Part shown: positions 6,284 through 33,051 of the stretch, piece by piece
Numbering within the stretch: the first letter of the stretch is position 1
Layout: every line of letters begins with the position of its first letter
DNA from: Acidobacterium sp.
GTDB lineage: Bacteria > Acidobacteriota > Terriglobia > Terriglobales > Acidobacteriaceae
Length of the DNA stretch: 41,049 nucleotides
Assembly: GCA_003167515.1 (NCBI GenBank)
Contig: PMSS01000404.1
Span: 1 to 41,049 of the forward strand
Direction of reading: 5' to 3'
Translations under genes and position numbers: made by a program
The notes under the pieces: model-generated
The model's input: only the letters and a program-made list of their open reading frames with translations
Told to the model about the DNA's origin: nothing
Databases searched by the model: none

Positions 6284-6389
6284 CTTTTCTCGGATTGGCT
6301 TTTCGATACAACCCAATAAAAACTTGTATGCATCAGAAAACCGCGCTGCGGCTCATCTCGCCGGTTTTGCCGGAGATCGAGCTTGCTGC

Positions 6390-6415
6390 GACTTTGAATT
6401 CCGACTTTGAATTCC
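6390..6415 (+). repeat. Perfect 13-bp tandem duplication
   Basis: GACTTTGAATTCC|GACTTTGAATTCC. Confidence 0.95.
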
Positions 6416-6510
6416 GTGGGCGATCCTGTGACGTCCGCACTCTGGAGTATGCGAGAACCTGGAAAGAGGGTTCGAAGCGATGCGGCGTGAAGGAAGCGGG
6501 CACGACTGAG

Positions 6511-7119
6511 ATGGCGGTGAGGCGGCAAATGCGGGCGCGATGGGACCGGTGGCGTTCAGTGCCGGCGCTCGTGTCCTTGCTGCTGGCGGGGCTCGTGGCA
6601 GCGCACGCGGCAATGCCGCCGCAGGAAGCCAGGGCGCAGAAGCCATCGCGCGACGATGTGCAGGCGGCGTATCTCTACAACTTCGGAAAATTTGTGCGCT
6701 GGCCGGAGAACGCGGGCCATGGTCCGATCCAGGTTTGCGTCGCAGGGGAAGATTCATTCGGGCAGACGATTGGGCGGCTAACGGCGGGGGAGCAGATCGA
6801 CGGGCGGGCGCTCCAGGTTCGCAGTTTGGACCGGCCGGAAGCAGAGGTGGGATGTGCGATTTTGTTCGTCGGCACGTCGGAGCACGGACGTGAGGACAGC
6901 TTTCTTGCGGCGGCGGCGGGCAAGCCGATTCTGACGGTTGGGGATGGGCCGGATTTCCTGACGCGCGGGGGTATGATCCAGTTCTTTCAGGTTGAGGATC
7001 ACGTCCGCTTTTCGGTGAATCTGGATGCGGCCAACCGGAATGGTGTGGGGCTGAGCTCGGAGCTGCTGAAGGTCGCGGTGAGCGTAAAGGGCAAACCGCA
7101 GGGCGGAGGGGCGCGATGA
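6511..7119 (+). CDS. YfiR family (DUF4154) periplasmic protein
   Basis: Signal peptide, then 'DDVQAAYLYNFGKFVRWPENAGHGPIQVCVAGEDSFG', 'AILFVGTSEHGREDSFLAAAAGKPILTVGDGPDFLTRGGMIQFFQVEDHVRFSVNLDAANRNGVGLSSELLKVA'. Start at ATG 6511 (possibly 6529). Confidence 0.85.
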   Translation: MAVRRQMRARWDRWRSVPALVSLLLAGLVAAHAAMPPQEARAQKPSRDDVQAAYLYNFGKFVRWPENAGHGPIQVCVAGEDSFGQTIGRLTAGEQIDGRALQVRSLDRPEAEVGCAILFVGTSEHGREDSFLAAAAGKPILTVGDGPDFLTRGGMIQFFQVEDHVRFSVNLDAANRNGVGLSSELLKVAVSVKGKPQGGGAR

Positions 7120-8585
7120 AGCCAGGCTCCTCCTCGATCTCGGCGAAGCTGATGTGGATGAACGTGGTGGTAAGCGCGACGGTGCTGGCGCTGGCGGTGA
7201 TTGCGTTTTTCTTCTACGACCTGATTTCGTTCCGGCAGAACCTGATTCGGAATCTGGAGACGTCTGCGGAGATTGTGGGGACGAACAGCGTGTCCGCGCT
7301 GACGTTTGACGATCCGCAGAGCGCGGCAGCGACGCTGCAGGCGCTGCGCACTTCACCCGATGTGGTGTCGGCGACGCTGGTAACGAATGACGGCACGACG
7401 TTCGCGGAATACCTGCGGACGGAGAGCGCGCGGCCGACGCCGGTGCGGGCGCTCGCGGAGGGGAAGAACGACGAAGACTGGGTGACGGGCAGGCAGGTGC
7501 TGCTGGCGCACCGCGTCATTTTCCAAGGCAAGGCGGTGGGCACGGTGTATATCGCGGCCGAGCTGACGGAGACGGGGCGGCGGGCGCGGCAGTATCTGCT
7601 GATTGCGTGCGGAGTTCTGCTGATCTGCATGGCGGCGGGCCTGCTGATCAGCTCGACAGCGCGGAGGCTGGTGGCGCGGCCGATGGTGGCGCTGGCGGAG
7701 ACGGCGCGCAGGGTTTCACGAGAGCGGGATTACTCGGTGCGCGCGGCGCCGCATCCGGACAAGGACGAGATTTCGGTGCTGATCGAGGCGTTCAACGAGA
7801 TGCTGGTGCAGATCCAGAGCCGGGATACGGCGCTGAACCGCGCGCGCGATCAGCTGGAGGCACGTGTGCAGGAGCGCACGGCGGCGCTGCGTGCGGCAAA
7901 TCGCGAGCTGGAAGCGTTTTCGTATACGGTCGCCCATGATCTGCGCGGGCCTCTCGATGCGGTGCAAGGGATGGTCTATATTCTCGAGAGCCTCGAGCGG
8001 GAGGAACAGGAGGGCGAGCGCCGGGAGATTCTGGAGCAGCTGCGGCAGGCCACCCGCAACATGGCCGGGCTGATCGATGATCTGCTGAACCTGTCGCGGG
8101 CGAGCACAGTCGCACTCAGGAAGGCGCCGGTGAACCTGAGCGAGATGGTGTGGCAGACTGCCGAGGAGCTGAGACGTGGGGATCCGGAACGGCGGGTGGA
8201 GTTCAAAATTGCGCGTCTGCCGGAGGTTGAGGCAGATGGGGGGTTGATCCGGGTGGCGCTCGACAACCTGATCCGCAACGCGTGGAAATACACCTCGCGC
8301 CATGACCAGGCATGCATCGAGTTCGGAGCAATGCGAGTGCGGGACGAGACGGTGTACTACGTGAAGGACGATGGAGCGGGGTTCGATCCGAAACTGAACG
8401 ATCAGCTGTTCCAGCCATTCCATCGGTTGCACAGCCGGAGCGAATTTCCCGGAACGGGAATTGGGCTGGCGACGGTGGCGCGCATCCTGGCGCGGCACGG
8501 TGGGCGAATCTGGGCGGAAGGCGCGATAGAGAAAGGTGCGACCTTCTGGTTCACGCTGAAGAGCGAGGTATCGGCGGTCGCGTGA
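7116..8585 (+). CDS. Sensor histidine kinase: CHASE8-like sensor, HAMP, HisKA, HATPase_c
   Basis: Two TMs flanking 'SVSALTFDDPQSAAATLQALRTSPDVVSATLV'; HAMP 'RRLVARPMVALAETARRVSRERDYSVRA'; H-box 'FSYTVAHDLRGPLDAVQG'; N-box 'LDNLIRNAWKYT'; 'DDGAGFDP'; 'GTGIGLATV'. Overlaps the yfiR-like stop (ATGA). Confidence 0.9.
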   Translation: MKPGSSSISAKLMWMNVVVSATVLALAVIAFFFYDLISFRQNLIRNLETSAEIVGTNSVSALTFDDPQSAAATLQALRTSPDVVSATLVTNDGTTFAEYLRTESARPTPVRALAEGKNDEDWVTGRQVLLAHRVIFQGKAVGTVYIAAELTETGRRARQYLLIACGVLLICMAAGLLISSTARRLVARPMVALAETARRVSRERDYSVRAAPHPDKDEISVLIEAFNEMLVQIQSRDTALNRARDQLEARVQERTAALRAANRELEAFSYTVAHDLRGPLDAVQGMVYILESLEREEQEGERREILEQLRQATRNMAGLIDDLLNLSRASTVALRKAPVNLSEMVWQTAEELRRGDPERRVEFKIARLPEVEADGGLIRVALDNLIRNAWKYTSRHDQACIEFGAMRVRDETVYYVKDDGAGFDPKLNDQLFQPFHRLHSRSEFPGTGIGLATVARILARHGGRIWAEGAIEKGATFWFTLKSEVSAVA

Positions 8586-9160: not shown

Positions 9161-9598
9161 GTGATGGATGGTTCTGAACGGGGGCGGAGGATGGGTGGCT
9201 TCGTAACGGCCCGCAAGGGATCGGCAGTTCGTAACGGTTCGCAAATGACGGAATTAGCTGCGCAGGAAGTGGGGCGGAGCGCGGGGGACCGACGGATGGG
9301 AGGATCGAGGAACACGATGGGGATGATACTGAATCCGGTTTTTGAGGGAAGCACGCCACTGCCGCGCTACAGCTGGACGATGCGGATGGGCTTGTGGCTG
9401 CGGAGGCTGATGAGTCTGCCGACCGCCGGCGAGATGCCGATCCGGCTCGAGGGCAGGCTGAGTCTGGGGCCGAAGAAGTCGCTGGTGCTGGTGAACTGCC
9501 GCGGTAAGAGCGTACTGCTGGCCCTGGGAACGGAAAGCATTACGCCGATTATGGAAGTACCGCCGCACCGGCGGCGGAGAAGGGATTCCGCGCAGTGA
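9161..9598 (+). CDS. fliO: FliO-like flagellar export protein (true start uncertain, probably 9317 or 9323)
   Basis: 'LWLRRLMSLPTAGEMPIRLEGRLSLGPKKSLVLVNCRGKSVLLALGTESITPI' is the FliO-type core; immediately upstream of fliP. Confidence 0.6.
   Translation: MMDGSERGRRMGGFVTARKGSAVRNGSQMTELAAQEVGRSAGDRRMGGSRNTMGMILNPVFEGSTPLPRYSWTMRMGLWLRRLMSLPTAGEMPIRLEGRLSLGPKKSLVLVNCRGKSVLLALGTESITPIMEVPPHRRRRRDSAQ
9172..9255. repeat. Three copies of TTCnnAACGG at exact 28-bp spacing
   Basis: TTCTGAACGG at 9172, TTCGTAACGG at 9200, TTCGTAACGG at 9228. The latter two extend to TTCGTAACGG(CC/TT)CGCAA. Confidence 0.8.
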
Positions 9599-10296
9599 AC
9601 GCGTTGTTCCTGGCCGCAGTGAAGGCCCGGAGCGGGCTGCCGGGGCTCGATCTGTCGGGGCATATCGGCAACAACAACTCGATCCCCTGGACGATTGTCT
9701 TCACCCTGACGCTGCTGACGCTGTTGCCGGCGATCCTGCTGGCGATGACGCCGATGGTGCGGCTGCTGGTGGTCTTTCACTTTCTGCGCCAGGCGCTGGG
9801 CACGCAGACCGCGCCGTCGAACCAGGTGCTGATGGGGCTGGGCCTGATGATGACCTGGTTCCTGATGCAGCCGGTTCTGGTGCAGGTGGACCAGCAGGCG
9901 GTGGAACCGTTTCGGGCGGGGCAGATCTCAGGGTGGGATGCGATCGACCGGGGATCGGAGCCGGTGAAGACCTACATGCTGCGCTACGCGCGCGAGAAGG
10001 ATCTGGCGCTGTTTGTCTCGGCGTCGATGACGGAGCGGCCGGCGAAGCCTGGCGACCTGCCCATCCGGGTGGTGGTGCCGGCCTACATCCTGAGCGAGCT
10101 GAAGGCGGGATTCGAGATCGGCGCGGTGCTGTTTCTGCCCTTCCTGCTGGTGGACATGGTGGTGGCCTCGATTACGACTTCGATCGGGATGTTCCAGCTG
10201 CCGCCGGTGGTGATCTCGACGCCGCTGAAGATTCTGCTTTTCGTGATGGTGGACGGCTGGAACCTGCTGGCCAGCTCGCTGCTGAAGAGCTTTTAA
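9595..10296 (+). CDS. fliP: Flagellar export protein FliP
   Basis: 'TLLPAILLAMTPMVRLLVVFHFLRQALGTQTAPSNQVLMGLGLMMTWFLMQPV', 'VVVPAYILSELKAGFEIGAVLFLPFLLVDMVVASITTSIGM'. GTG start. Confidence 0.95.
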   Translation: MNALFLAAVKARSGLPGLDLSGHIGNNNSIPWTIVFTLTLLTLLPAILLAMTPMVRLLVVFHFLRQALGTQTAPSNQVLMGLGLMMTWFLMQPVLVQVDQQAVEPFRAGQISGWDAIDRGSEPVKTYMLRYAREKDLALFVSASMTERPAKPGDLPIRVVVPAYILSELKAGFEIGAVLFLPFLLVDMVVASITTSIGMFQLPPVVISTPLKILLFVMVDGWNLLASSLLKSF

Positions 10297-10365
10297 CCTG
10301 GCCATCAACCTGGGCGCACGGGCGCCGGGAAGAGATGGGACGGAAATGTTCAGGAAAGGAACGCG

Positions 10366-10641
10366 ATGGGACCGGATGCGGTAGCGGAGCTCATGCGCAA
10401 TCTGCTGCGGGAGGCGTTGATCCTGGGAGCGCCGGTGCTCGCGGCGGCCTGCATCACGAGCTTCCTGATCAGCCTGTTGCAGACGCTGACGTCGTTGCAG
10501 GACCAGACCATCTCGACGGTGCCGCGGCTGCTGATTGTGGTGGGGCTGCTGATGGCGGCGCTGCCCTGGTTCCTGGGCCGGCTGATGAGCTACACCCTTT
10601 CGCTGTTCTCGGATTTCCATCGCTTTCTGGGGGCGGGATGA
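10366..10641 (+). CDS. fliQ: Flagellar export protein FliQ
   Basis: 91 aa; 'LLREALILGAPVLAAACITSFLISLLQTLTSLQDQTISTVPRLL'. Confidence 0.93.
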   Translation: MGPDAVAELMRNLLREALILGAPVLAAACITSFLISLLQTLTSLQDQTISTVPRLLIVVGLLMAALPWFLGRLMSYTLSLFSDFHRFLGAG

Positions 10642-11420
10642 AGTTGGGCAACGCGAACTGGGAGGGAACCCTCGAGGCCATGACGCTGGTGATGGTGCGG
10701 ATCAGTGGACTGATGGTCTTTGCTCCGGTGTTCTCCTCGGCGGCGATCCCGGTGCGGGTGAAGGCGGCTTTTGTGCTGGCCGTGTCGTTTCTGGTGGCGC
10801 CGGTGGTTGCGGCTTTTCCGCGCGCGCACGCGGAGCTGGGGATGCTGCCGGTCCTCGGAGAGCTGAGCGTGGGACTGGTTCTCGGCATGACGCTGTCGCT
10901 CCTGTTCGCGGCGCTTGATTTTGCCGGGCAGGTGATGGGATTTCAGTTCAGCTTCTCTCTGGTGAACCTGATGGATCCGAATGCTCCGGTGCAGACTCCG
11001 CTGCTGGGGCAGATGTTCGGGCTGCTGGGAACGCTGGTGGTGGTGGGCGCGGGACTGGACCGCACGCTGCTGGCCGCTCTTTTGCGGACCTTCGCAGCAG
11101 CGCCGGTGGGGACGGTGACCCTCGATCCGCATGCCGGTCTGGCGATTGTCACGATGGCGGGCGGAATTTTTGCGGCGGCGCTGCAGCTGTCGGCTCCCGT
11201 AATCGGGGCGACGCTGCTGGCGGAGCTGGCGGTAGCGCTGGCCGGAAAGCTCTCGCCGCAGCTGCCGGTGATGGCGATGACCGTGCCGCTGAAGACCCTG
11301 GTGGGCTTCGGCGTTCTGATTGGGTCGCTGGCGCTGTGGCCGCACTGGATCGAGGCGCGCTTCGCGGCGCTGCTCGACGACGCGGGACGGCTTTTGGCGA
11401 CTGCGGCGGGAGCGGCTTAA
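10638..11420 (+). CDS. fliR: Flagellar export protein FliR
   Basis: MKLGNANWEGTLEAMTLVMVRISGLMVFAPVFSSAAIPVRVKAAF...; 'GQVMGFQFSFSLVNLMDPNAPVQTPLLGQ'. ATGA overlap with fliQ. The ORF-track start at 9933 is spurious. Confidence 0.93.
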   Translation: MKLGNANWEGTLEAMTLVMVRISGLMVFAPVFSSAAIPVRVKAAFVLAVSFLVAPVVAAFPRAHAELGMLPVLGELSVGLVLGMTLSLLFAALDFAGQVMGFQFSFSLVNLMDPNAPVQTPLLGQMFGLLGTLVVVGAGLDRTLLAALLRTFAAAPVGTVTLDPHAGLAIVTMAGGIFAAALQLSAPVIGATLLAELAVALAGKLSPQLPVMAMTVPLKTLVGFGVLIGSLALWPHWIEARFAALLDDAGRLLATAAGAA

Positions 11421-11423
11421 TCC

Positions 11424-12548
11424 ATGCCTGGCGACCGGACAGAGAAGGCGAGTCCACGGCAGCGGCAGAAGGCAGCCGAGCACGGCGATCGAGCGCGCAG
11501 CCGCGATCTGATGTCGGGTGCAGCCATGCTGGCGGGAACCTTCGCGCTGGGCAGCGTAGCCGGGAAATGCGTCGAGGGGTGGGCCGGGGCGTATCGTGCG
11601 TTTCTGGCCATCGGACAGCCGGCACTATGGGATCGCTCGACAGCGGCAGAGACGGTATTGGCGATGCGCGGGATCGTGCTGCGGACGCTCGAACCGGTGG
11701 GCATCGTCTTCCTCGCATCGCTGGCGGCGGCGGTGGCGGCCGGGGTGATGCAGGGCGGGGGCTGGAGTCTGAATTTCGAGGCGTTGTCGCCCAAGCCGGA
11801 GCGGCTCAGTCCTGCGGAGAACGCCAAAAATGTCTTTTCGCTGCGCGGCGCGGTGCGGCTAGGTAAGTCGCTGGTGCCGGTGGTGCTGCTGGGCTTCTTC
11901 GCGGTTCGCGCCATCGAGGCGCAGACCGAGATTCCGCCCATGAGCATGGAGCGGTATCCGGACGTATTTGCCGAGATGTACAACCTGCTGCTCGACGGGG
12001 CGTGGATTTTCCTCGGCTGGGCGGGCATCGACTACGTGATGGAGTGGCGAAGCCGGGAGAGCCGCCTGCGCATGTCGAAGCAGGACATGCGCGACGAGTA
12101 CCGGGAGATGGAGGGGAGTCCGCAGGTGAAGTCTAGGATACGCGGACTGCGCCGGCAGATGCGGAGGCGCCAGCTGAAGGCGGATATCGGGCGGGCTTCG
12201 GTGGTGGTGACGAACCCGACGCACTACGCCGTGGCGCTGACCTTCAATTTCGAGACGATGGAACCGCCGCGTGTGCTGGCCAAGGGCAGGGATTTGCTGG
12301 CGGCGCAGATTCGGGAAGAGGCGCAGTGGGCGGGCGTGCCGATTGTCGAGAATCCGCCGCTGGCGCGATCGCTCTACCGCCAGGTGGAGCAGGGTCAGAC
12401 GATTCCTTATGAACTGTACGCGGCGGTGGCGGCGATTCTGGCATGGCTCTACCGGCGCGAGGTCGAGGAGCGCGTGCGGCGAGAACGGGCCGACGCCCAG
12501 GCCCGCGCAAAGAAAAACCACGGTGGCGGCCCGAGAGAGGCGCGATGA
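11424..12548 (+). CDS. flhB: Flagellar export switch protein FlhB
   Basis: 'DRTEKASPRQRQKAAEHGDRARSRDL', autocleavage motif 'VVVTNPTHYAVALTF', 'VPIVENPPLARSLYRQVEQGQTIP'. Confidence 0.96.
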   Translation: MPGDRTEKASPRQRQKAAEHGDRARSRDLMSGAAMLAGTFALGSVAGKCVEGWAGAYRAFLAIGQPALWDRSTAAETVLAMRGIVLRTLEPVGIVFLASLAAAVAAGVMQGGGWSLNFEALSPKPERLSPAENAKNVFSLRGAVRLGKSLVPVVLLGFFAVRAIEAQTEIPPMSMERYPDVFAEMYNLLLDGAWIFLGWAGIDYVMEWRSRESRLRMSKQDMRDEYREMEGSPQVKSRIRGLRRQMRRRQLKADIGRASVVVTNPTHYAVALTFNFETMEPPRVLAKGRDLLAAQIREEAQWAGVPIVENPPLARSLYRQVEQGQTIPYELYAAVAAILAWLYRREVEERVRRERADAQARAKKNHGGGPREAR

Positions 12549-12584
12549 GGAGGGGACGATGATGACAGGACGGAGGGCTATGCG

Positions 12585-14672
12585 ATGAGTGCAGGAGCGA
12601 TGACCCTGGGGACAGCCGCACCGGGCGGAGGTATGAGAGCGCTGCGCAATCTGGTGTTGCCGGTGGCTGCGATCAGCGTTCTGTTCGTGATGGTGGTGCC
12701 GGTTCCGGCCTTCGTCATGGACATGCTGCTGGCCTGTTCGATGGCGGCCTCGATCCTGGTGTTTCTGTCGGCGGTGCAGCTTAGGCGGGCGGTGGACTTC
12801 TCGGTGTTTCCAACGCTGTTGCTGCTGCTGACGCTGTTTCGTCTGTCGCTGAATATTGCGTCGAGCCGGCGCATTCTCCTGCATGGCAACGAAGGAACGT
12901 CGGCGGCGGGCAAGGTGATCGAGGCGTTCGGGCAGTTTGTGGTGGGCGGCAATTACGTCGTCGGGTTTGTGTTGTTCCTGGCGCTGATCGCGATCCAGTT
13001 CTTAGTGGTGAGCCACGGCGCCGTGCGCACCGCCGAGGTGACGGCGCGCTTCACGCTCGACGCGCTGCCGGGCAAGCAGATGGCCATCGATGCGGACATG
13101 AACGCGGGACTGATCGATGAGTCGACGGCGAGAAAGCGGCGGCAGGCGATCGCGCAGGAGGCCGAGTTTTACGGGGCGATGGACGGGGCTGCACGCTTCA
13201 ACCAGCGCGACTCGCTGGCCACGATTCTGATTACCGCCATCAATATCGTGGCCGGGCTGCTGATCGGGACGCTGCAGCAGGGAGTTGACCTGGGCGAAGC
13301 GGTGCGCACCTACACGATTCTGACGGTGGGCGACGGACTGGTGACGATGATTCCTTCTCTGCTGGTCTCGGTCGCGGGCGGAATGGTGCTGACGCGGGCC
13401 TCGTCGGCCGGACAGCTGACGACAGAGCTGGGAGCGCAGTTGCTGGGGAATGGATCGACGCTTTATGTGGCGAGCGGAGTGCTGGGGGCGTTGTGTCTGA
13501 TTCCCGGTTTGCCCAAGCTCGCGTTTCTGCTGCCGGCCGTGGCGCTGGGATACGCGGGGACGCGCGTGGTGAAACGCCAGGCTCCGACGGCGGAAGGCGA
13601 GACGGGAAAAAAAGCGGCGGAGAAGCCGGAGAATCTGGCAGCGATTCTGCGCCTCGACGAGCTGAGCCTTGAGATCGGCTTCCAGCTGATTCCTCTGGTC
13701 GACGAAAAGCAGGGCGGGCAGATGTTGCAGCGGGTAAAGACGCTGCGGCGTCATCTGGCTGGAGAACTGGGGTTCCTGATTCCACCTGTCCATATTTCCG
13801 ACAACCTGCGGCTCAAAGCGCGGGAGTACGTCGTCTCGCTGCGGGGAGTCGAGATCGGCCGCTGGCAGACGGAGGGGAGCTGCCTGCTGGCGGTGTCGAC
13901 GGAGGCGCAGCCGCGGCCGCTGCCGGGCAAAGAGACGCGGGAGCCGGCCTATGGAACTCCGGCGCGCTGGATCCAGCCGGCGGTCGAAGAAGAGGCGCTG
14001 GCGGCCGGCTATTCGGTGGTGGATCACGTGACGGTGATCGGGACGCATCTCGGGGAGCTGATCCGGAAACATGCGCACGAACTGCTGGGCCGGGCGGAGA
14101 CCAAGCGGCTGCTGGACTCGCTCGGGGAGAGCCATCCGAAGCTGGTCGAGGAACTGGTGCCGAAGGTACTTTCGCTTGGCGAGGTGCAGAGAGTTCTGCA
14201 GCAGCTTCTGCGGGAGCGGGTCTCGATTCGCGATCTGGGAACGATTCTGGAGACGCTGGTCGAGACGGCTGCACAGAACCGCAGCCTGCCACAACTGGTC
14301 GAAGCGGCTCGCCAGTCGCTGGGGCGGCGGCTGGTGCAGCCCCTGCTCGAAGCAGACGGGACGCTGCGGGTGATCGCGCTCGAGCCGGCGCTCGAGGAGG
14401 AGCTGATGGGGCTGGTCTCGCCCGAGCCGGGGGCGCGGCAGCTGGCCTCGGGCGGGAATACGCCGATCCTGAAGCGCATCCTCGATTCTTTGAAACATCT
14501 TATGGGGCCGGCTTCGGCTTCGGCCCAGCCCGTGCTGCTCTGTTCGAGTCCGGCGCGGTATCACGTGCGGCGGTGGCTTGAGCCGGTGCTGCCGCGGCTG
14601 ACAGTTGTCGCCCCGGCCGAGATCCCCTTGGAGGTTCAGGTGCGGGCTGCGGGGATTGTGCGCCAGAGTTGA
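12585..14672 (+). CDS. flhA: Flagellar export protein FlhA
   Basis: 'VDFSVFPTLLLLLTLFRLSLNIASSRRIL', 'FTLDALPGKQMAIDADMNAGLIDESTARKRRQAIAQEAEFYGAMDGAARF', FHIPEP-type ending. Confidence 0.97.
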   Translation: MSAGAMTLGTAAPGGGMRALRNLVLPVAAISVLFVMVVPVPAFVMDMLLACSMAASILVFLSAVQLRRAVDFSVFPTLLLLLTLFRLSLNIASSRRILLHGNEGTSAAGKVIEAFGQFVVGGNYVVGFVLFLALIAIQFLVVSHGAVRTAEVTARFTLDALPGKQMAIDADMNAGLIDESTARKRRQAIAQEAEFYGAMDGAARFNQRDSLATILITAINIVAGLLIGTLQQGVDLGEAVRTYTILTVGDGLVTMIPSLLVSVAGGMVLTRASSAGQLTTELGAQLLGNGSTLYVASGVLGALCLIPGLPKLAFLLPAVALGYAGTRVVKRQAPTAEGETGKKAAEKPENLAAILRLDELSLEIGFQLIPLVDEKQGGQMLQRVKTLRRHLAGELGFLIPPVHISDNLRLKAREYVVSLRGVEIGRWQTEGSCLLAVSTEAQPRPLPGKETREPAYGTPARWIQPAVEEEALAAGYSVVDHVTVIGTHLGELIRKHAHELLGRAETKRLLDSLGESHPKLVEELVPKVLSLGEVQRVLQQLLRERVSIRDLGTILETLVETAAQNRSLPQLVEAARQSLGRRLVQPLLEADGTLRVIALEPALEEELMGLVSPEPGARQLASGGNTPILKRILDSLKHLMGPASASAQPVLLCSSPARYHVRRWLEPVLPRLTVVAPAEIPLEVQVRAAGIVRQS

Positions 14673-14749
14673 TCTGGCGGGCATAGGCAGAGGGCAGGGA
14701 CGACGCAAGGTCAGGGCAGTGGCAAGGTCGGGGACGAGGAGCCAGCGCG

Positions 14750-15634
14750 ATGGACTATGCAGGTCAGGCAGCGGAGACGTGGAGAAAACCGGGTCGGGAA
14801 AGCCCGGCCGCAACGAGGGACACGGGACTCGAGACCAGCAGACTGGAAACGAGGAAAGTGGAAATGGAAACCAGCGAAGCGGAAGCCCGGGACCGGGAAT
14901 CCATGTCCGGGCCGCCAGCGAACGACGAGGAGCGCGAGCGGATGATGCTCGAACACATGCCTGCCGTGCGCTGGACGGCAAGGCGCATTCACGAGCGCCT
15001 GCCCCAGCACGTGGACATGGAAGATCTGGTGAGCGCGGGCACTCTGGGTCTCCTCGATGCCTTCCGCAAGTTCGACCCCGCGAAGAAGGTGCAGTTTCGC
15101 AGCTACGCGCAGTTCCGCATCCGGGGAGCGATCCTCGACAGCCTCAGGACGCTCGACTGGAGCCCGCGCGATCTGCGCCGCAAGGGGCGTGCAGTCGAGG
15201 AGGCGGTGCGGCGGCTGACGGCGCGCTGCGGGCGGGCGCCATCCGAACCCGAAGTGGCGCACGAGATGAGCCTCGGCCTTGAGGAGTATCAGCAGCTCCT
15301 GGGCGAGCTGAAGGGGCTTGAGATCGGCACGCTGCATATCGAGCGCTCCGAGGACTCAGGAGAAGAGGAACTGGCCTACATTCCGAATCGTCCCGACGAC
15401 GATCCGCTGTTTCGCTGTCTGCGCGGGGAGATGCGCGAGCGTCTGGCCTCGGCCATCGACCGGCTGCCGGAGCGGGAACGTCTGGTGGTGACGCTCTATT
15501 ACTACGAGGAGATGACGATGAAGGAGATCGGGCTGGCGCTGGGGGTGGTCGAATCGCGGGTCTCGCAAATCCATTCCTCGGCGGTAGTCCACTTGCGTGC
15601 AGGCCTTCAGGAATTCGGGACGGGGCGGCGGTAA
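14750..15634 (+). CDS. fliA: RNA polymerase sigma factor FliA (sigma-28); start uncertain (14750 or 14903)
   Basis: Sigma70 r2 'HVDMEDLVSAGTLGLLDAFRKFDPAKKVQFRSYAQFRIRGAILDSLRTLDWSPRDLRRKGR'; r4 'LPERERLVVTLYYYEEMTMKEIGLALGVVESRVSQIHSSA'. Confidence 0.93.
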   Translation: MDYAGQAAETWRKPGRESPAATRDTGLETSRLETRKVEMETSEAEARDRESMSGPPANDEERERMMLEHMPAVRWTARRIHERLPQHVDMEDLVSAGTLGLLDAFRKFDPAKKVQFRSYAQFRIRGAILDSLRTLDWSPRDLRRKGRAVEEAVRRLTARCGRAPSEPEVAHEMSLGLEEYQQLLGELKGLEIGTLHIERSEDSGEEELAYIPNRPDDDPLFRCLRGEMRERLASAIDRLPERERLVVTLYYYEEMTMKEIGLALGVVESRVSQIHSSAVVHLRAGLQEFGTGRR

Positions 15635-15640
15635 ACCGGT

Positions 15641-16603
15641 ATGGCGATCGAAAAGGAACTCGTACAGGAGGAGATCGACGCCCTGTTTCAGGCGGCGCGG
15701 GCGCGTAACCACGAGGTTCGTCAGGAGCCGAAGAGCCGGGTGCTCGCCTGGAGTTTCTCTCGTTCTGGGCAGATATCGAACGAACAGCTACGCGCCATCA
15801 GTATGATCAACGACATCTTTGCCCGCAACCTGACGCATCATCTGGGCGCATGGTTCCGCAGCCGGGTGCAAGTCAGCCTGGTCTCGGCCGAGCAGATCCA
15901 GTTCAGCGAGTTCCTGCTGCGTATCCCCGAGCTGGCCTATGTCTGCTCGGTCCGCCTTGAGCCGCTGCGCGCGACGTCGGTGCTGCAGATGGATCTGACC
16001 ACGGCGCCCTCGATGATCGACCTGCTGCTGGGCGGCGAAGGGAAGGCCACCGAGCCGAGGGAGCTGACCGATATCGAGGAGTCGATCTTGTCGGGCGTGG
16101 TGGAGGCGATCTGTCGCGAGCTGACCGCGGCCTGGCAGCCCGTGGGGCTGAGCTTCAGCTTTGAGAAAAGGCAGATGCAGACGCAGACGCCGAGGCTGAT
16201 TCCGGTCTCGGAAAAGACCCTCTGTCTGAGTTTCGAGCTGCGCCTCGCCGAGACCAGCGGTCTGCTGAACCTGGCGTTTCCGGCCGTGGCGTCCAATACG
16301 ATTCTGCGCCGGCTGGGCGGCGAGCGATCCCGGCAGCGGCGCCACTCCGAGGAGACGCGACGGCGCATCAGGGAGCTTGCGGGCAATTGCCGGACCAGCA
16401 CCGCGCTTCATCTGCCGCCGGTGCGGGTGGCGGCCGAGTCGCTGGGCGAGTTGCGGCCAGGATCAATTTTGCGGTTGGATCTGCCGGCGCGGACGCCGGC
16501 GCAGTTTCGTGCCGGGGGTGTGGTGTTGTTTTCGGCTGCGCCGGTCGGGCGGGCGGATCATCGGGCGGCGCAACTGCTGAAAGCGAGCGAGGCGAAGAGG
16601 TGA
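15641..16603 (+). CDS. fliM: Flagellar motor switch protein FliM
   Basis: 'LVQEEIDALFQAA', 'LRAISMINDIFARNLTHHLGAWFRSRVQVSLVSAEQIQFSEFLLRIPELAYV', C-terminal SpoA-like region. Confidence 0.88.
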   Translation: MAIEKELVQEEIDALFQAARARNHEVRQEPKSRVLAWSFSRSGQISNEQLRAISMINDIFARNLTHHLGAWFRSRVQVSLVSAEQIQFSEFLLRIPELAYVCSVRLEPLRATSVLQMDLTTAPSMIDLLLGGEGKATEPRELTDIEESILSGVVEAICRELTAAWQPVGLSFSFEKRQMQTQTPRLIPVSEKTLCLSFELRLAETSGLLNLAFPAVASNTILRRLGGERSRQRRHSEETRRRIRELAGNCRTSTALHLPPVRVAAESLGELRPGSILRLDLPARTPAQFRAGGVVLFSAAPVGRADHRAAQLLKASEAKR

Positions 16604-17355
16604 ACGAACAGGGAGGGAGTACGGGTCTGGCAACACAGGGTCCGGGAAGCTGGATCGGGAAGCTCGAGGCGGAGATCGCCCGCGAGCTCGGGCAGCCCGT
16701 ATCGCTGGCCGCCGGCGGCGAGGCGCCTGAGCCGGCCAGGAGTCTCTCGGATATGATCGCTGTCCCGGGAACGCGCCTGGTCCTGAGGGTCGATCGCGAC
16801 GATGCGGCCGGGGTTCTGGCCGAAGGCCGCGTGGTCGAGGCAGGGCAGGCGGATGCGGAAATGGTGCGGGAGCTCTGGTCCGGCATCCTCTCGAGCGTGG
16901 CGGCGCGTCTGGGGGGGAAGACGGTGCCGGAGGCTCTGGATCCGATGCGGACAGAAGTTCGGGCGGACCCATGCACCCTGCGTCTCGGCAACGCTCGGAT
17001 GCGCATGGCCATCGCCGTGGAGGCGACTGAGAAGGAAGCCCCCGTGGAGGCGCCCGTGCGGGCGAACGCGGGCGGGGAGCGGGCAGCGGGCAATTTCGAT
17101 TTGCTGCTCGAAGTGGAGCTCGATGCCTCGGTCCGCTTTGGATCCTGCGAGATGGAACTAAAGGACCTGCTGGAACTGGGGCCGGGGGACGTGGTCGAGC
17201 TCGATCGCCACGTGGCCGATCCCGTGGATCTGATTGTGGGAGACAAGATTGTTGCGCGCGGCGAGGTGGTGCTGGTGAATGGCAATTTTGGCTTAAGAGT
17301 CACCGAAATAGCGGAGCCTGTGCGGCGGCTGGAGAGCATCCGATGCCTCTGTTAG
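16600..17355 (+). CDS. fliN: Flagellar motor switch protein FliN/FliY type
   Basis: C-terminal SpoA 'LLLEVELDASVRFGSCEMELKDLLELGPGDVVELDRHVADPVDLIVGDKIVARGEVVLVNGNFGLRVTEIA'. GTG start overlaps the fliM stop (GTGA). Confidence 0.85.
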   Translation: MNEQGGSTGLATQGPGSWIGKLEAEIARELGQPVSLAAGGEAPEPARSLSDMIAVPGTRLVLRVDRDDAAGVLAEGRVVEAGQADAEMVRELWSGILSSVAARLGGKTVPEALDPMRTEVRADPCTLRLGNARMRMAIAVEATEKEAPVEAPVRANAGGERAAGNFDLLLEVELDASVRFGSCEMELKDLLELGPGDVVELDRHVADPVDLIVGDKIVARGEVVLVNGNFGLRVTEIAEPVRRLESIRCLC

Positions 17356-18362
17356 GAAGCCGGGTCGTTCGAAAGAGCGAGCCTGGGGCACCACTGGCGG
17401 AAACACGCCCCGGTTCGCTGTTTTCCCATTGCGCGAGTCCGCGCTGCGCAATGGGCTGGATTCGTCTGTGGCGCAGCCGGCGGGTTCCCGGATTCGAGGG
17501 GGGATGGGCCTGCTCGGCCGAATGCATGGGAGATCTGGTGGCGGCGGCGGTGCGCCGGGAGATGGATGGGGGGATCTCGATTTCCGCGTTTCGCCAGCAC
17601 CGCGTGCCTATGGGCCTGATGCTGGTCGAGCAGGGGCGGATCACGCCGGAGCAGCTGCGCGCGGCTCTGGACGGCCAACAGCGCGCGGCCAAGGAGACGG
17701 GGGAGACGGTTCGCCTGGGAGAATGGCTGCTGCGGAGTGGGGTCCTCGCGGAACGGGCGCTGACCCGGGCGCTGAGCGCGCAGTGGAATTGTCCTGTGTA
17801 TTCGCTTGGGAGCTATCGTCCGGAAGAGGTGGCGGCATCGATGCCCAGGTTCCTGTCGGAGGCTTTTGGCGCGCTCCCGGTGCGGGTGGCTGGCGGGAAG
17901 CTTCTGTACGTGGCCTTCTCCGGACGCATCGACCGCAGCCTGAGCTATGCTCTGGAGCGCATCGGTGGAATGCGGGTGACGGCCGGCATCGCACCGGATT
18001 CAGAATTCGAGCGGGCGCAGGTGCGTTTCCTTGAAACCCCCGCGCCGCGGGCGCGGTTTATCGAGGCGGCCAGTTCCTGGGTGCTGGCGCGGACCATCAC
18101 CCGCCTGATCGAATCCGAGAAGCCGCTCGACGCGCGTCTGGCGCGGATCCACGACTACTACTGGCTGCGGATGTTCCGGCGCGCGGCCCCTGGTTCTGGG
18201 TTGCCCCCCTCAGAGGCCGTTGAGGACCTGCTCTTCACGGTGGGGACGGGCGTCGTGACGGGCGGGCCGGAAAGCAAAGCGGGAAGAGAAAAATCAGATC
18301 GTGAAAATCGGAACCTCGCCGATAAGGCAAGAGTGGAGGAGACTGCGCGATGTCCGGAATGA
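17343..18362 (+). CDS. MshEN/GspE N-terminal-like domain protein with N-terminal Cys cluster
   Basis: 'HCASPRC...GGWACSAEC' plus two 24-residue motifs 'PMGLMLVEQGRITPEQLRAALDGQ' and 'RLGEWLLRSGVLAERALTRALSAQ'. Confidence 0.7.
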   Translation: MPLLGSRVVRKSEPGAPLAETRPGSLFSHCASPRCAMGWIRLWRSRRVPGFEGGWACSAECMGDLVAAAVRREMDGGISISAFRQHRVPMGLMLVEQGRITPEQLRAALDGQQRAAKETGETVRLGEWLLRSGVLAERALTRALSAQWNCPVYSLGSYRPEEVAASMPRFLSEAFGALPVRVAGGKLLYVAFSGRIDRSLSYALERIGGMRVTAGIAPDSEFERAQVRFLETPAPRARFIEAASSWVLARTITRLIESEKPLDARLARIHDYYWLRMFRRAAPGSGLPPSEAVEDLLFTVGTGVVTGGPESKAGREKSDRENRNLADKARVEETARCPE

Positions 18363-18733
18363 CGGTGCTAATTGTCGACGACTCGTCGGTGATGAGGAAG
18401 ATAGTCGAGCGGGCTCTGCGCCAGGCAGGGCTGGATCTGACGAAAGTGTTGGAAGCGGGCAGCGGACGGGAAGGCCTCGAGGCGCTGGGACGCGAGCGAG
18501 TAAACCTGATCGTTTCCGATATCAACATGCCCAGCATGGACGGCCTCGAATTTCTGCGGCAGATTCAGAGCCAGGGGCTGGCCCAGGGAGTTCCGGTGGT
18601 GATGATAACCACCGAGAGCGGCGAAGAGCATGTGCGCGAGGCGTTGGCGGCGGGGGCTCAAGGGTACATTCGCAAGCCGTTCACGCCCGATCAGGTGCGG
18701 GAGCGGGTGCTCCCGCTGCTGGGTCCTGCGTAA
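18350..18733 (+). CDS. cheY: CheY-like response regulator
   Basis: 'TVLIVDDSSVMRKIVERALRQAG', 'LIVSDINMPSMDGLEFL', 'VVMITTES', 'GYIRKPFTPDQV'. Confidence 0.9.
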   Translation: MSGMTVLIVDDSSVMRKIVERALRQAGLDLTKVLEAGSGREGLEALGRERVNLIVSDINMPSMDGLEFLRQIQSQGLAQGVPVVMITTESGEEHVREALAAGAQGYIRKPFTPDQVRERVLPLLGPA

Positions 18734-18934
18734 GCCCTCTGCCGACCTGGTTGTCTCAAGGCGGCGCGACAAGACTGCATCTTGCGGAGCCGGCGTGCGG
18801 GCGCAGGCAGAATAAGGGCGTAGCCCGCGAGCCTGGGCGCGACCGCAGGGCACAACGAGAGGTATGCAGCCAACAGAACACAGCAGCAACGAACAGGCCA
18901 CAGACGGGACGGACAGGAAGGAGAGTGAAAATCG

Positions 18935-19444
18935 ATGGCGGCAGGCAAAGGGACGACGGCGGTCTCCGGCACAGACAAAAAAGTGGAGATCTCCCGATTT
19001 GAGAAACACCTCGATCAGGCGACGGACGAAGTTTTCAGCACCATGATCGGGGTGAGTTGCGCGCCGGCGGGCGAGAGCCCCGTGGGGGAGGCAGAGACGA
19101 TTTCCGCGGTGATCGGACTGGCCGGTGCGCTGAGCGGTTCGCTGGTGCTGCATTCCAGCAGTGTGGCGGCAATGCGGATCGCCGAGCGAATGACCGGCAT
19201 CGAGCCGGGCGGGGTGGATGCCCTGGTACGGGACGCGGTCGGCGAGATGTGCAACATGGTGGCCGGAGCCTGGAAGGGCCGTGATCCGTTGCTGATCTCG
19301 GGGTGCCTGCTCTCGACGCCGACGGTGGTGTCGGGGACCAGCTATCTGCTGTTCAGCCAGCGAGCTCCCATTCGCATCGAACGACACTATCGATTTGAAG
19401 AGCTGACCTTCATGATTATCCTCTCCTGTGAGTTGCCAGGGTAA
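18935..19444 (+). CDS. cheX: CheX-like chemotaxis phosphatase
   Basis: 'DEVFSTMIGV', 'VIGLAGALSGSLVLHSSSVAAMRIAERMTG', signature 'DAVGEMCNMVAGAWKGRD'. Confidence 0.8.
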   Translation: MAAGKGTTAVSGTDKKVEISRFEKHLDQATDEVFSTMIGVSCAPAGESPVGEAETISAVIGLAGALSGSLVLHSSSVAAMRIAERMTGIEPGGVDALVRDAVGEMCNMVAGAWKGRDPLLISGCLLSTPTVVSGTSYLLFSQRAPIRIERHYRFEELTFMIILSCELPG

Positions 19445-19513
19445 GTTTTTTCCAATGTCTCCCCCCCTCCATCGGCCCCCGTCCTGCAGGAATCCGGGGT
19501 GGGAGGCGGATGG

Positions 19514-20251
19514 GTGGACAGCGGCTATTACGCAGCGTTTTCCGGGTGGCTCGCGCGCAGCCAGGCGCTCGATGTAGCGGCCGGCAATCTGGCTAACGCC
19601 GGAACCGCGGGCTATCGCGCGGAACGGGACTATTTTCGTTCGGCCATTCTGGGTCCCGATACGCTGCATTCGCAGCTCAACACGACGGTTAATGCGTTCG
19701 GGGTGCTGGGCGGGAGCCGACTGGACATGGACCAGGGTGCGCTGACACCGACCGGCAATCCCCTCGATCTGGCCATTGAAGGGGACGGATTCTTTGCCAT
19801 CCAGACAAAACAGGGTCTGCGATACACGCGCGATGGGCAATTCGAGCGTGCGCAGGACGGAACCCTGACCACACAGGCGGGCGAGCCGGTGCTCGATGCG
19901 CGGAATCGGCCTGTCCGGGTACCGGCTGGCGAGATTGCGATCGGCACCGATGGATCCGTATCGGTCAATGGTGCCGTGGCGGGCCGGATTTCGGTTTTCG
20001 GCTTCGCCTCAGCTGATGAGCTTTTGGCTGAAGGCGCGAATCGCTACGCTCCGGTGGAAGGCGCCGAAGCCACAGCCGCGACGGGCGCTGTTCATCAGGG
20101 TGCGCTCGAATCCTCAAACCAGGACGTGATCGGCGGAAGTTTGCAGCTGGTGCTGATGCAGCGCCAGGCGGAAATGATGGAGAAGGCGGTTTCGATGTTC
20201 TCGAACGATCTCGACAAGGCGGCGAGTGAGGATTTGCCGCGCGTGCCATAG
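19514..20251 (+). CDS. flgF: Flagellar basal-body rod protein FlgF
   Basis: 'YYAAFSGWLARSQALDVAAGNLANAGTAGYRAERDYF', 'NPLDLAIEGDGFFAIQTKQGLRYTRDGQFERAQDGTL'. GTG 19514 follows GGAGG. Confidence 0.88.
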   Translation: MDSGYYAAFSGWLARSQALDVAAGNLANAGTAGYRAERDYFRSAILGPDTLHSQLNTTVNAFGVLGGSRLDMDQGALTPTGNPLDLAIEGDGFFAIQTKQGLRYTRDGQFERAQDGTLTTQAGEPVLDARNRPVRVPAGEIAIGTDGSVSVNGAVAGRISVFGFASADELLAEGANRYAPVEGAEATAATGAVHQGALESSNQDVIGGSLQLVLMQRQAEMMEKAVSMFSNDLDKAASEDLPRVP

Positions 20252-20276
20252 GCGGACGGGATACCAGGAGGCAGAT

Positions 20277-21065
20277 GTGATTCGAGCTTTATACACGGCG
20301 GCGAGCGGCATGAGCGCGCAGCAACTGAACCTGGACACGATCGCCAACAATCTGGCGAATTCGTCGACGGTAGGGTTTCGCCAGCGGCAGCTGCAGTTTC
20401 AGGACATGATCTACCAGAATCTGGTGACGCCGGGCGCGGCGCAGAGCCAGGAGACGGTATCGGCGGGGCTGCAGATCGGCCTCGGAACGAAATCGGCGGC
20501 CAGCGAGGTCATCATGACCCAGGGCGATATGAACCAGACCAACAATCCGCTGGATCTCGCGATTCAGGGAACGGGCTTTTTCCAGGTGTCGCGGCCGGAT
20601 GGAACGCTCGCGTATACGCGCGCCGGCAATTTCTATCTGAACAACCAGGGTTCGCTGGTCGATGCGCAGGGCGACGCCGTAGTGCCGAGCATCACGATTC
20701 CGGCGAATGCGACTGCGGTCACGATCACGCAGTACGGGGTGGTAAACGCGACGCTCCCCGGGCAGCAGAATCCGGCGCAGCTGGGACAGATCCAGCTGGC
20801 GACGTTTGTGAATCCCGGAGGCCTCGAGAGCGTGGGATCGAATCTGTTCACGGCGACGCTGTCGTCCGGCGACCCGGTGCTGGGCAATCCTGGGGGAACG
20901 GAGGGACTGGGGACGCTGCAGCAGGGATATCTCGAAAACTCGAATGTGGATGTGGTGGGAGCGTTTGTGCAGATGGTTCTGGCGCAACGCGCCTACGAGA
21001 GCAATTCGAAGGTGATTCGCGCGGCCGATGACATGTACAGCCAGGTCAACAACATGGCGCGGTGA
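20277..21065 (+). CDS. flgG: Flagellar distal rod protein FlgG
   Basis: 'VIRALYTAASGMSAQQLNLDTIANNLANSSTVGFRQRQLQFQDMIYQNL', 'NPLDLAIQGTGFFQV', 'GYLENSNVDVVGAFVQMVLAQRAYESNSKVIRAADDMYSQVNNM'. Confidence 0.95.
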   Translation: MIRALYTAASGMSAQQLNLDTIANNLANSSTVGFRQRQLQFQDMIYQNLVTPGAAQSQETVSAGLQIGLGTKSAASEVIMTQGDMNQTNNPLDLAIQGTGFFQVSRPDGTLAYTRAGNFYLNNQGSLVDAQGDAVVPSITIPANATAVTITQYGVVNATLPGQQNPAQLGQIQLATFVNPGGLESVGSNLFTATLSSGDPVLGNPGGTEGLGTLQQGYLENSNVDVVGAFVQMVLAQRAYESNSKVIRAADDMYSQVNNMAR

Positions 21066-21110
21066 CCTAAGGTCATTTGGGCGGGATCGAAATCTGGCAG
21101 GGAGGGCGTT

Positions 21111-21575
21111 TTGGCTTGGATGGGCATTGGGGCAGGCGTTCTGGCGGCGATGCTTCTGGCGCCGGCGTCCGCATCCGGCGCGTGCGGAGCTGGAAATATT
21201 GTCCGGGACTGGGGCCTGCACATCGAGTGGGTTGTTGAGCGCGACGCGAGTCACCTGGAGCGGCCCGCGAGGCTCGTGGAGGTTCCATGGAACGCAGCGG
21301 GAGTCGAAGAGCAAACTCAGATGAGATGCACTGCCGCGAGCCGGAGCGTGGGAAGAGAGGCTCTGCGGTCTGCGCCGGAGGTTCGGAGCGGCATGCGAGT
21401 CGTAGTGTGGCGGCGGGATGAGAGTGGGGAGATTCATCTTCGCGGCACGGCGCTGGGCACGGCGTGCATGGGAGAAAGGGTCTTCGTGAAGGCGGGCCTG
21501 AGTGGGGCGACGGTCGAGGGGATCGTGCGCGGGCCGGGTCTGGTGGAGTTATCGCCGCAGAAGGGCGGAGAGTGA
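21111..21575 (+). CDS. flgA: FlgA-like P-ring assembly chaperone (SAF domain)
   Basis: Signal peptide; 'PEVRSGMRVVVWRRDESGEIHLRGTALGTACMGERVFVKAGLSGATVEGIVRGPGLVEL'; sits between flgG and flgH. Confidence 0.75.
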   Translation: MAWMGIGAGVLAAMLLAPASASGACGAGNIVRDWGLHIEWVVERDASHLERPARLVEVPWNAAGVEEQTQMRCTAASRSVGREALRSAPEVRSGMRVVVWRRDESGEIHLRGTALGTACMGERVFVKAGLSGATVEGIVRGPGLVELSPQKGGE

Positions 21576-22346
21576 ATGCGGGCAGCGAGACGGAAAGCGG
21601 CGGGACGCGCCGTTTGGGCGGGGACGGGGCTTGCGGCAAAGGCTGCGGTATGGATCGCGGTTGTAATCACACTGTTCCTGACCGGCGTGGCCTCGGCGGG
21701 AGTCACAAAGAAGCAGCAGTCCGCTAACACTCCGCCGGATGTGGCGCTGAGAGAGTACATCGCGCGGGTGCGCGCGGAGAAGGCGGCTGAAGTGCTGACA
21801 CCCGGGTCGATCTGGTCGGCGACCGGGAGGCTGACCAATCTGGTCAGCGACGTGAAAGCGGTGCGCGCGCACGATCCGATCGCGGTTGTGGTTTCGGAGA
21901 GCCTCGCTGCGTCGACCGACGGGACCGTGAAGAACCAGCGGGCCTCGAGCGCGAGCTCGCAGGTGTCCGCGCTGCTGGGCAAGCTTTCGACCAGCAATGC
22001 CCTGAACAATCTTCTGAACCAGAGCTCCGCCTCGGCGCTGAATGCCCAGGGACAAAGCCAGACGAATTCGACCATCACGACGACTCTGGGCGGCGAAGTC
22101 GCCGATGTTCTGCCCAACGGGATGCTGGTGATCCAGGTGGTGCGGCAGCTGACGTTCAATCAACAGACGCAGCTGATCCGGCTGCGCGGGCTGGTGCGGC
22201 CTGAGGATGTCAACGCACAGAACCAGGTCATGTCGACGGCGATTACGGATATGGAGCTCGAAGTGGTGGGAAAAGGCATCGTGAACGATGCCACCTACCG
22301 GCAGAATCCGGTGGTGCGCCTGATCGAAAGGATTCTGGTCTTCTGA
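21576..22346 (+). CDS. flgH: Flagellar L-ring protein FlgH (no lipobox Cys seen)
   Basis: 'LTPGSIWSATGRLTNLVSDVKAVRAHDPIAVVVSES', 'GGEVADVLPNGMLVIQVVRQLTFNQQTQLIRLRGLVRPEDV'. Confidence 0.9.
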   Translation: MRAARRKAAGRAVWAGTGLAAKAAVWIAVVITLFLTGVASAGVTKKQQSANTPPDVALREYIARVRAEKAAEVLTPGSIWSATGRLTNLVSDVKAVRAHDPIAVVVSESLAASTDGTVKNQRASSASSQVSALLGKLSTSNALNNLLNQSSASALNAQGQSQTNSTITTTLGGEVADVLPNGMLVIQVVRQLTFNQQTQLIRLRGLVRPEDVNAQNQVMSTAITDMELEVVGKGIVNDATYRQNPVVRLIERILVF

Positions 22347-22370
22347 CCTGGGGCATCGGATGACGGTGAG

Positions 22371-23522
22371 GTGACAATGCGACGGCTGGTACGGGTAACG
22401 ATGCGGAGGCTGACGGCCGGAGTTCTGATGATGGCTTGTGCCGCGCCGGCAGCGGGCGCCGAGAGCCCGCCGAAGAGAAAGCTGGCGCGCGTAAAAGACG
22501 TGGCCTCGGTCGAAGGGGTGCGGGACAACCAGCTGGTGGGCTATGGAATCGTGGTCGGGCTGCATGGGACAGGGGACAGCTCGCAGACGGTATTTCCGCT
22601 GCAGACGCTCGAGTCGGCGCTCGAGCGTATGGGCGTGAGCCTGCAGGGGAACGCGATGGCGTCGATGATGCAGACGCGCAACATGGCAGGGGTTTTCCTG
22701 TCGGGCACGCTGCCACCGTTCGCGCGGCCGGGCAACAAGGTCGACATCACGGTCTCATCGGCCGGCGATGCGCGGAGTCTCGAGGGGGGCGTGCTGCTGC
22801 TGACCCCGATGTACGGGCCGGATGGGCAGATTTATGCACAGGCGCAGGGGCCGATGGTGCTGGGCGGATACGCGGTAACGGCGAACGGGAGCAGCAAATC
22901 GGTGAACTATCCTACGACGGCGCGCATCCCTTCGGGAGCGATTGTGGAGCGGGGGGTGCCGCTCGATCTGGCGCAGATGCGTACGCTGTCGCTGCTGCTG
23001 AACGATGCCGATTTTGAAACCGCAGAGACGGTGACGGCGGCGATCAATCGCGAGCTGAGCCGGTCGCTGGCTCATGCCGTAGACAGCCGCCGGATCGAGA
23101 TTCAGCCGCAGGCCAACGAAGACATTCCGGCCTTGCTGGCGCGGGTCGAAGAGGTCGAGGTGGAAGTGCAGCCGCGGGCGAAAGTGGTTGTAAACGAACG
23201 GACCGGAACGGTGGTGATCGGTGGCAACGTGACCCTGCAGCCGGTGACGATTCTGCACGGCGGTTTGGTGGTGAACATCGTGAGCAGAACCGAAGTCTCG
23301 CAGCCGAACCCGCTCGCCCAGGGAACGACGCAGGTGGTGCGGCAGACGACGGTGCAGGCGCAGGACAAGCCGGTCAATCGGATTGAGCTGCGGGAGGGCG
23401 CTACAGTGGACGATCTGGTGGAGAATCTGCAGCAGATTGGAGCAACGGCGCGGGACATTGTCTCGATTCTGCAGGCGATGAAGGAAGCGCAGGCTCTTGA
23501 AGCCGAGCTGGAGGTGCTGTGA
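22371..23522 (+). CDS. flgI: Flagellar P-ring protein FlgI
   Basis: 'ARVKDVASVEGVRDNQLVGYGIVVGLHGTGDSSQTVFPLQTLESALERMGVSL', 'NMAGVFLSGTLPPFARPGNKVDITVSSAGDARSLEGGVLLLTPMYGPDGQIYAQAQGP'. Confidence 0.96.
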   Translation: MTMRRLVRVTMRRLTAGVLMMACAAPAAGAESPPKRKLARVKDVASVEGVRDNQLVGYGIVVGLHGTGDSSQTVFPLQTLESALERMGVSLQGNAMASMMQTRNMAGVFLSGTLPPFARPGNKVDITVSSAGDARSLEGGVLLLTPMYGPDGQIYAQAQGPMVLGGYAVTANGSSKSVNYPTTARIPSGAIVERGVPLDLAQMRTLSLLLNDADFETAETVTAAINRELSRSLAHAVDSRRIEIQPQANEDIPALLARVEEVEVEVQPRAKVVVNERTGTVVIGGNVTLQPVTILHGGLVVNIVSRTEVSQPNPLAQGTTQVVRQTTVQAQDKPVNRIELREGATVDDLVENLQQIGATARDIVSILQAMKEAQALEAELEVL

Positions 23523-33045: not shown

Positions 33046-33051
33046 CGAAAG

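Follow-up and report, generated by a model that had tools for sequence, protein, structure and literature searches.

Why should a gene that encodes the c-di-GMP-binding motifs of a secretion ATPase, and no ATPase, reside in the switch operon of a flagellum? This question is raised by a 339-residue open reading frame in a contig of Acidobacterium sp. (PMSS01000404.1), which was analysed over its full length of 41,049 nucleotides, hereafter called the window. A sequence-only reading of this DNA had noted two 24-residue motifs separated by an 11-residue spacer, pairs of cysteines in front of them, and the lack of an ATPase domain, all of which we could confirm in the 339-aa frame. The gene also has the position that was claimed for it in the window, directly between fliN and cheY, and it overlaps both of these genes. 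To our knowledge, routes from c-di-GMP to the motor are known for few domain types (PilZ and the CheY-like Cle proteins) and in few proteobacteria. The reading of the locus that we favour, with a modest degree of confidence, is that the MshEN protein encoded here serves the flagellum of the Acidobacteriota as a dedicated c-di-GMP receptor. The features on which this reading is based are listed in the Table.

Table. Positions of the MshEN gene, its predicted modules and the surrounding flagellar genes in the window.
Feature	Position	Strand	Length	Remarks
Flagellar cluster fliO-fliP-fliQ-...-flhB-flhA-sigma28-fliM-fliN-MshEN gene-cheY-cheX-flgF-flgG-flgA-flgH-flgI	9161..23522	+		Pfam
fliM	15641..16603	+		N-terminal EIDALF CheY-binding-type segment; Pfam FliM, E 2.9e-36
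fliN	16606..17355	+		Putative start codon; constant upstream neighbour; Pfam FliMN_C, E 2.9e-23
Stand-alone Cys4 - MshEN - probable N2-remnant protein gene (P0001)	17343..18362	+	339 aa	
Cys4 module, C30-x4-C35 ... C57-x3-C61	17430..17525	+		Putative treble-clef/FCS-like zinc finger
MshEN motif I, residues 89-112 (PMGLMLVEQGRITPEQLRAALDGQ)	17607..17678	+		Pro replaces Arg at position 1
MshEN motif II, residues 124-147 (RLGEWLLRSGVLAERALTRALSAQ)	17712..17783	+		Canonical RLG...Q
MshEN_C subdomain, residues 149-231	17787..18035	+		Pfam PF05157 and Foldseek
C-terminal beta-alpha-beta-beta-beta module, residues 233-300	18039..18242	+		Probable traffic-ATPase N2 remnant
cheY	18350..18733	+		Start at 18350 or 18359; Response_reg, E 1.2e-30
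cheX	18935..19444	+		CheY-P phosphatase; PF13690, E 1.2e-15

The 5′ end of the MshEN gene shares 13 nt with fliN (stop codon at 17353-17355), and its orthologues begin at the same position with MPLL- or MPVL-like N-termini; these two observations support the start at 17343. The TGA stop codon (18360-18362) lies inside the start region of cheY, the overlap amounting to about 4 nt if cheY is initiated at its second ATG (18359) or to 13 nt if it is initiated at 18350. Because the MshEN gene overlaps both neighbours, it is probably translated together with fliN and cheY. The existence of orthologues rules out a recent pseudogene or a chance open reading frame. The neighbouring FliN of the window is extended at its N-terminus by about 150 aa (16606-17100), a stretch that is absent from FliN proteins of the Edaphobacter/Granulicella type (about 100 aa).

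As to its domains, the sequence-only reading was right about the motifs and incomplete otherwise, the protein containing a full bidomain of MshEN_N (residues 89-147) and MshEN_C and, behind it, one more module at the C-terminus. The presumed relationship to MshEN was borne out by alignment to family models: the protein passes NCBIfam NF053729 ('c-di-GMP_motif') with 40.3 bits at a cut-off of 38, and all 53 aligned orthologues match this model with E ≤ 0.001. Pfam PF05157, which in these proteins covers the C-terminal half of the bidomain, scored around its cut-off of 23.1 bits (23.5 in the genome search and 20.7 with hmmscan). A match to DUF4388 (E 0.0019, under its Pfam cut-off) was treated as chance or remote. 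When the six frames of the window were searched with the relaxed 24-residue motif (Wang et al. 2016), motif II was the only match, motif I failing at one position, where R99 takes the place of an expected hydrophobic residue. Among 200,000 shuffled versions of the protein, one relaxed motif was found in 0.11% and a tandem pair never; the tandem motif is more than a product of chance. The 11-residue spacer (residues 113-123) compares with about 5 residues in MshEN receptors and represents an insertion typical of the genus of the window, being shorter in most orthologues outside this genus. It forms an inter-helix loop, so that its extra length would probably be neutral.

An AlphaFold model of the protein, built with 24 orthologues, has a mean pLDDT of 84.9, with values above 90 for almost every residue from 91 to 300 apart from the final blocks, and poor values for the first 20 and the last 40 residues. 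The model displays the four-helix bundle of MshEN_N together with the MshEN_C fold, and in Foldseek searches the whole bidomain matched the c-di-GMP-bound structures of MshE (5HTL) and PilF GSPII-B (8PDK) with E-values of 1e-7 to 1e-8 and a probability of 1.00, the latter value being reached for 9GL5 as well. No Walker A motif or RecA-like ATPase domain was found in the protein with Pfam or NCBIfam, and the chain ends after the N2-like module.

Whether such a fold still binds its ligand depends on a small number of residues, and we therefore inspected these across 53 orthologues. Residues C57, C61, G91, G126, Q147 and W274 are invariant, followed in conservation by C30 and C35 (each in 52/53), P179 and R276. 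The invariant set thus includes the Gly at position 3 of both motifs (G91 and G126) and the Gln at the end of motif II, while the Gln at the end of motif I (Q112) is present in 49/53, having been lost in a few orthologues such as L116 and L121. It is these Gly and Gln positions that contact c-di-GMP in MshE (PMC5013675). At position 1 of motif II (R124 in the window) 50/53 orthologues have Arg or Lys. The loss of the Arg and Gln ligand positions in most homologues, which the sequence-only reading had regarded as speaking against its proposal, is therefore not what the alignment contains. The Arg of the original consensus is nonetheless found at position 1 of only one of the two motifs, as motif I starts with P89. 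Pro occupies this position in 38/53 orthologues and is the residue of the clade of the window, whereas Arg, Lys or Leu is found in most of the distant clades.

Several published observations bear on these deviations. Changes of Arg9 in MshE shift the affinity by at most five-fold (PMC5013675), and the consensus for position 1 was later widened to R/K/L (PMC11731258). In PilF, replacement of Lys by Leu at position 1 of GSPII-B even tightened binding (KD from 6 to 2 nM), and GSPII-C, whose motif II has Pro (P335) in position 1, binds c-di-GMP nonetheless (PMC11731258). Since position 1 tolerates changes in these proven binders, P89 is unlikely to abolish binding. A Ser at position 1 of motif II did prevent binding in PilF GSPII-A (PMC12002112), but the window protein keeps Arg at that place. 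The residue R99 is a mild concern, I19R being one of eight changes given for XpsE, which does not bind (PMC5013675); the first motif of PilF GSPII-C has Lys at the equivalent position. Altogether, we predict with good confidence that the protein binds c-di-GMP.

The same residues bear on the idea that the protein has a structural, accessory role in the C-ring, where its MshEN fold is reused for protein contacts and no longer binds c-di-GMP. Such a loss would agree with the Pro at position 1 of motif I, with R99 and with the absence of Gln112 from some orthologues, and it has precedents in other GSPII domains, XpsE and PilF GSPII-A (PMC5013675, PMC12002112). However, across the phylum hardly any residues of the protein are better conserved than the Gly and Gln of the ligand site, and c-di-GMP is bound by PilF GSPII-B with Leu at position 1 (2 nM) and by GSPII-C with P335 (PMC11731258). 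In our estimation a purely structural role is quite unlikely.

In front of the bidomain lies the Cys4 module, which in the AlphaFold model (residues 30-61) consists of short strands followed by a helix that starts at the last Cys pair. No Pfam zinc-finger family was significant for the Cys4 domain of the window, and a PDB profile match to the PHD finger of yeast YNG1 (E 0.0016) was judged to reflect generic similarity in the Cys pattern. With each of the four Cys present in 52 or more of the 53 orthologues, a metal-dependent regulator, as contemplated in the sequence-only reading, is plausible; a structural zinc finger would be likelier than metal-dependent signalling. A finger of the FCS/treble-clef kind might also contact nucleic acid or a sigma or anti-sigma factor, and the protein would then control the expression of flagellar genes, with the MshEN part sensing c-di-GMP. 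The presence of both sigma-28 and flgM within the flagellar cluster is in line with this idea, but Pfam gave no match to a known DNA-binding family, and it is to fliN, not to sigma-28 or flgM, that the gene remains linked. We consider such a role very improbable.

The C-terminal module, in which W274 and R276 are conserved, is predicted to fold on its own (pLDDT 92.5 when modelled alone). When it was compared by hhalign with the 'VN.I...A...ASDIHxEP....RyRiDG' segment of N2 from PilB proteins of the same phylum, an E-value of 0.028 was obtained with all orthologues and of 0.0004 with the distant ones, and none of 100 column shuffles reached the score with either set. A Foldseek search with the isolated module yielded no significant match, and since the fold comparison thus failed to confirm N2, we regard descent from it as likely rather than proven. 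On the basis of its sequence, the module is likely a shortened N2 remnant, and the MshEN protein as a whole likely derives from a traffic ATPase by loss of the motor.

If the protein serves the flagellum, its gene should be distributed accordingly. Among 61 related genomes, about 23 besides the window were found to encode the orthologue completely or in large part, and in 23 of 23 loci that were fetched with their flanks the gene directly follows fliN in the order flhA-sigma28-fliM-fliN-gene (fliM was undetected between sigma28 and fliN in 2 of these loci). Across the phylum, stand-alone orthologues, counted as open frames under about 560 aa with a match that starts in the Cys region plus one fragment at a contig edge, were found in 55 of 396 sampled Acidobacteriota genomes. 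FliN is encoded in 55/55 of the orthologue-bearing genomes compared to 128/396 overall, and the orthologue occurs in 0/268 FliN-negative genomes, although these genomes are related to one another and the counts do not represent independent events. Within the family of the window, 35/37 FliN-positive and 0/7 FliN-negative genomes have it. The orthologue is present in 10 GTDB families of the 396-genome sample and in 2 more among the 61 related genomes. A profile search of genome contigs with a narrow orthologue alignment named Edaphobacter, Granulicella, Acidipila and other Acidobacteriota as carriers, whereas a single-protein search of these contigs gave no match; one carrier contig is labelled Rhodanobacteraceae and possibly belongs to a mislabelled bin. 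The plasmids searched contained no orthologue and gave a single match, to a secretion ATPase. In one genome (G011) the orthologue (L042:8041-9025 (-)) is split near its 3′ end into two overlapping pieces by an apparent frameshift, which may be an assembly error or the sign of a decaying gene. Another stand-alone MshEN type of about 305 aa (family f32; for example G299:C5:323118 and G190:C10:228220), whose match does not include the Cys4 region, is also found in FliN-negative genomes and is apparently unrelated to flagella.

In further loci the gene lies just downstream of fliN in all but one, with one or two small genes in between in some of them, and in distant families it keeps its place between fliN and flgF, the intervening small genes being an HDOD gene and a DUF2802-like gene. 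HDOD genes (L100:5314-6276 (+); L089:5290-5979 (-)) separate fliN from the MshEN gene in distant families or, in G304, take the place of the latter, and their product is possibly a functional partner of the MshEN protein or a substitute for it. Several Acidobacteriota have, downstream of fliN, a small gene whose product contains a putative membrane helix (L100:6298-6729 (+), L101:5406-5954 (+), L091:3277-3780 (+)), the one in L100 having a weak DUF2802 match (E 5e-6, below the Pfam cut-off). Exceptions to the arrangement are G303, where the orthologue is unlinked to fliN, G187, where it was lost and flgF directly follows fliN, and G304, where an HDOD gene occupies the slot in which the MshEN gene is missing. 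Since G187, G304 and G039 are flagellated and do not have the gene, it is not essential to the flagellum. Of the conserved fliN-mshEN-cheY order that had been envisaged, the fliN part thus stands, while adjacency to cheY is lineage-specific, flgF often being the next gene downstream. Consequently, cheY was dropped as the defining partner link, as its adjacency is not conserved across loci. The original proposal of a c-di-GMP regulator of the switch is strengthened by the phylum-wide conservation and synteny and needs correction in so far as cheY is not a constant neighbour.

Given how strictly the gene goes with flagella and with fliN, its product may act on the C-ring or its binders. Alternatively, it might be a c-di-GMP-controlled factor that docks on FliN to gate flagellar protein export or the sequence in which the C-ring is assembled, comparable to FliH, which docks on FliN, and to the MshEN-bearing end that docks PilB/GspE on its machine. 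The likely descent from the N-terminal half of a traffic ATPase, the location beside fliN in an operon that includes the export genes fliO/P/Q, flhB and flhA, and the missing tie to cheY would all suit such a factor. On the other hand, the protein has neither an ATPase nor a FliH-like helix, and its retained ligand residues suggest signalling rather than scaffolding alone. We therefore rate an export or assembly factor as unlikely. If c-di-GMP is bound, the dedicated receptor that we favour probably targets the motor or switch, export and transcription being less likely targets, and the most likely site of action is the C-ring or CheY, as for YcgR or Cle. Gene neighbourhood, however, is not proof of physical contact with FliN, FliM or CheY.

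With 28 GGDEF matches (c-di-GMP synthesis) and 7 PilZ matches (other receptors) in the genome, c-di-GMP signalling exists in this organism. A classical CheY switch exists as well, because FliM keeps its EIDAL-type N-terminus and the genes for CheY and CheX lie close by, and the MshEN protein would therefore be an added input. Just upstream of the flagellar cluster (6295-8585), the window encodes a YfiR/HmsC-like protein and, after it, a histidine kinase with a CHASE8 domain. In YfiN-type diguanylate cyclases CHASE8 serves as the sensor, whereas here it is joined to a kinase. A purine degradation cluster with xanthine-dehydrogenase-type subunits, OHCU decarboxylase and uricase (28573-33900) adjoins the flagellar cluster.

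From these elements a possible mechanism can be outlined. The ancestor would have been the front half of a pilus or type II secretion ATPase, of which the MshEN bidomain and the N2 remnant were kept and the motor ATPase was lost, and a Cys4 module, probably binding zinc, would have been added at the N-terminus. MshEN_N would hold c-di-GMP between its two 24-residue motifs and would thereby shift its position relative to MshEN_C, upon which the Cys4 module, the C-terminal module or both could dock on the C-ring (FliN/FliM) or on CheY. At high c-di-GMP such docking may bias switching or slow rotation, the direction of the effect being inferred. The proposal comes down to a single named gene, for whose product the ligand residues are predicted (G91, G126, Q112 and Q147); it is present in cultivable Edaphobacter and Granulicella strains and is hence open to genetics.

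The literature search, which covered few subscription papers, returned no paper that joins MshEN with FliN in this manner and none for Acidobacteriota. MshEN has been found together with CheA and CheX domains (PMC5013675). While the MshEN domain is already known, the architecture of Cys4, MshEN and probable N2 remnant without an ATPase and its fixed place in the flagellar operon across a phylum appear to be undescribed. With MshE of V. cholerae and PilF of T. thermophilus the window protein shares the tandem 24-residue motifs, the ligand Gly and Gln residues and the MshEN_N plus MshEN_C fold, and it differs from them by the absence of an ATPase, the Pro for Arg in motif I, the 11-residue spacer, the Cys4 module in front and the location in a flagellar operon. 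In the same order as in the PilB/GspE traffic ATPases, MshEN is followed by a probable N2-like segment, but this segment is shortened and the whole C-terminal ATPase with its Walker A/B motifs is missing. E. coli NfrB, in which the MshEN region is similar over residues 85-221 (E 1e-11), is another case of MshEN outside secretion ATPases; unlike this c-di-GMP-activated membrane glycosyltransferase, the window protein has no recognised enzymatic domain.

In function, the closest parallels to the proposed role of a c-di-GMP effector on the flagellar switch or motor are YcgR and Cle. YcgR is a flagellar brake through which c-di-GMP acts on the switch via a different domain, PilZ, and in Caulobacter the CheY-like Cle proteins attach to the flagellar switch in their c-di-GMP-bound form (PMC5677366). 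Their domains are unrelated to MshEN: a Pfam scan found no PilZ domain in the window protein, nor a receiver domain with an Arg-rich C-terminal motif of the Cle type, cheY being a separate gene. In addition, interaction was shown for YcgR and Cle and is what we infer here. Tentatively, and with somewhat less conviction than we attach to the receptor itself, we propose that the Acidobacteriota have a phylum-wide c-di-GMP-sensing C-ring subunit or clutch, an engine-less pilus or secretion ATPase that gained a zinc finger and moved into the switch operon, and that it forms a third independent effector class beside YcgR and Cle. If this is true, these abundant soil bacteria solved c-di-GMP control of the motor independently, by recycling the sensor of a pilus ATPase.
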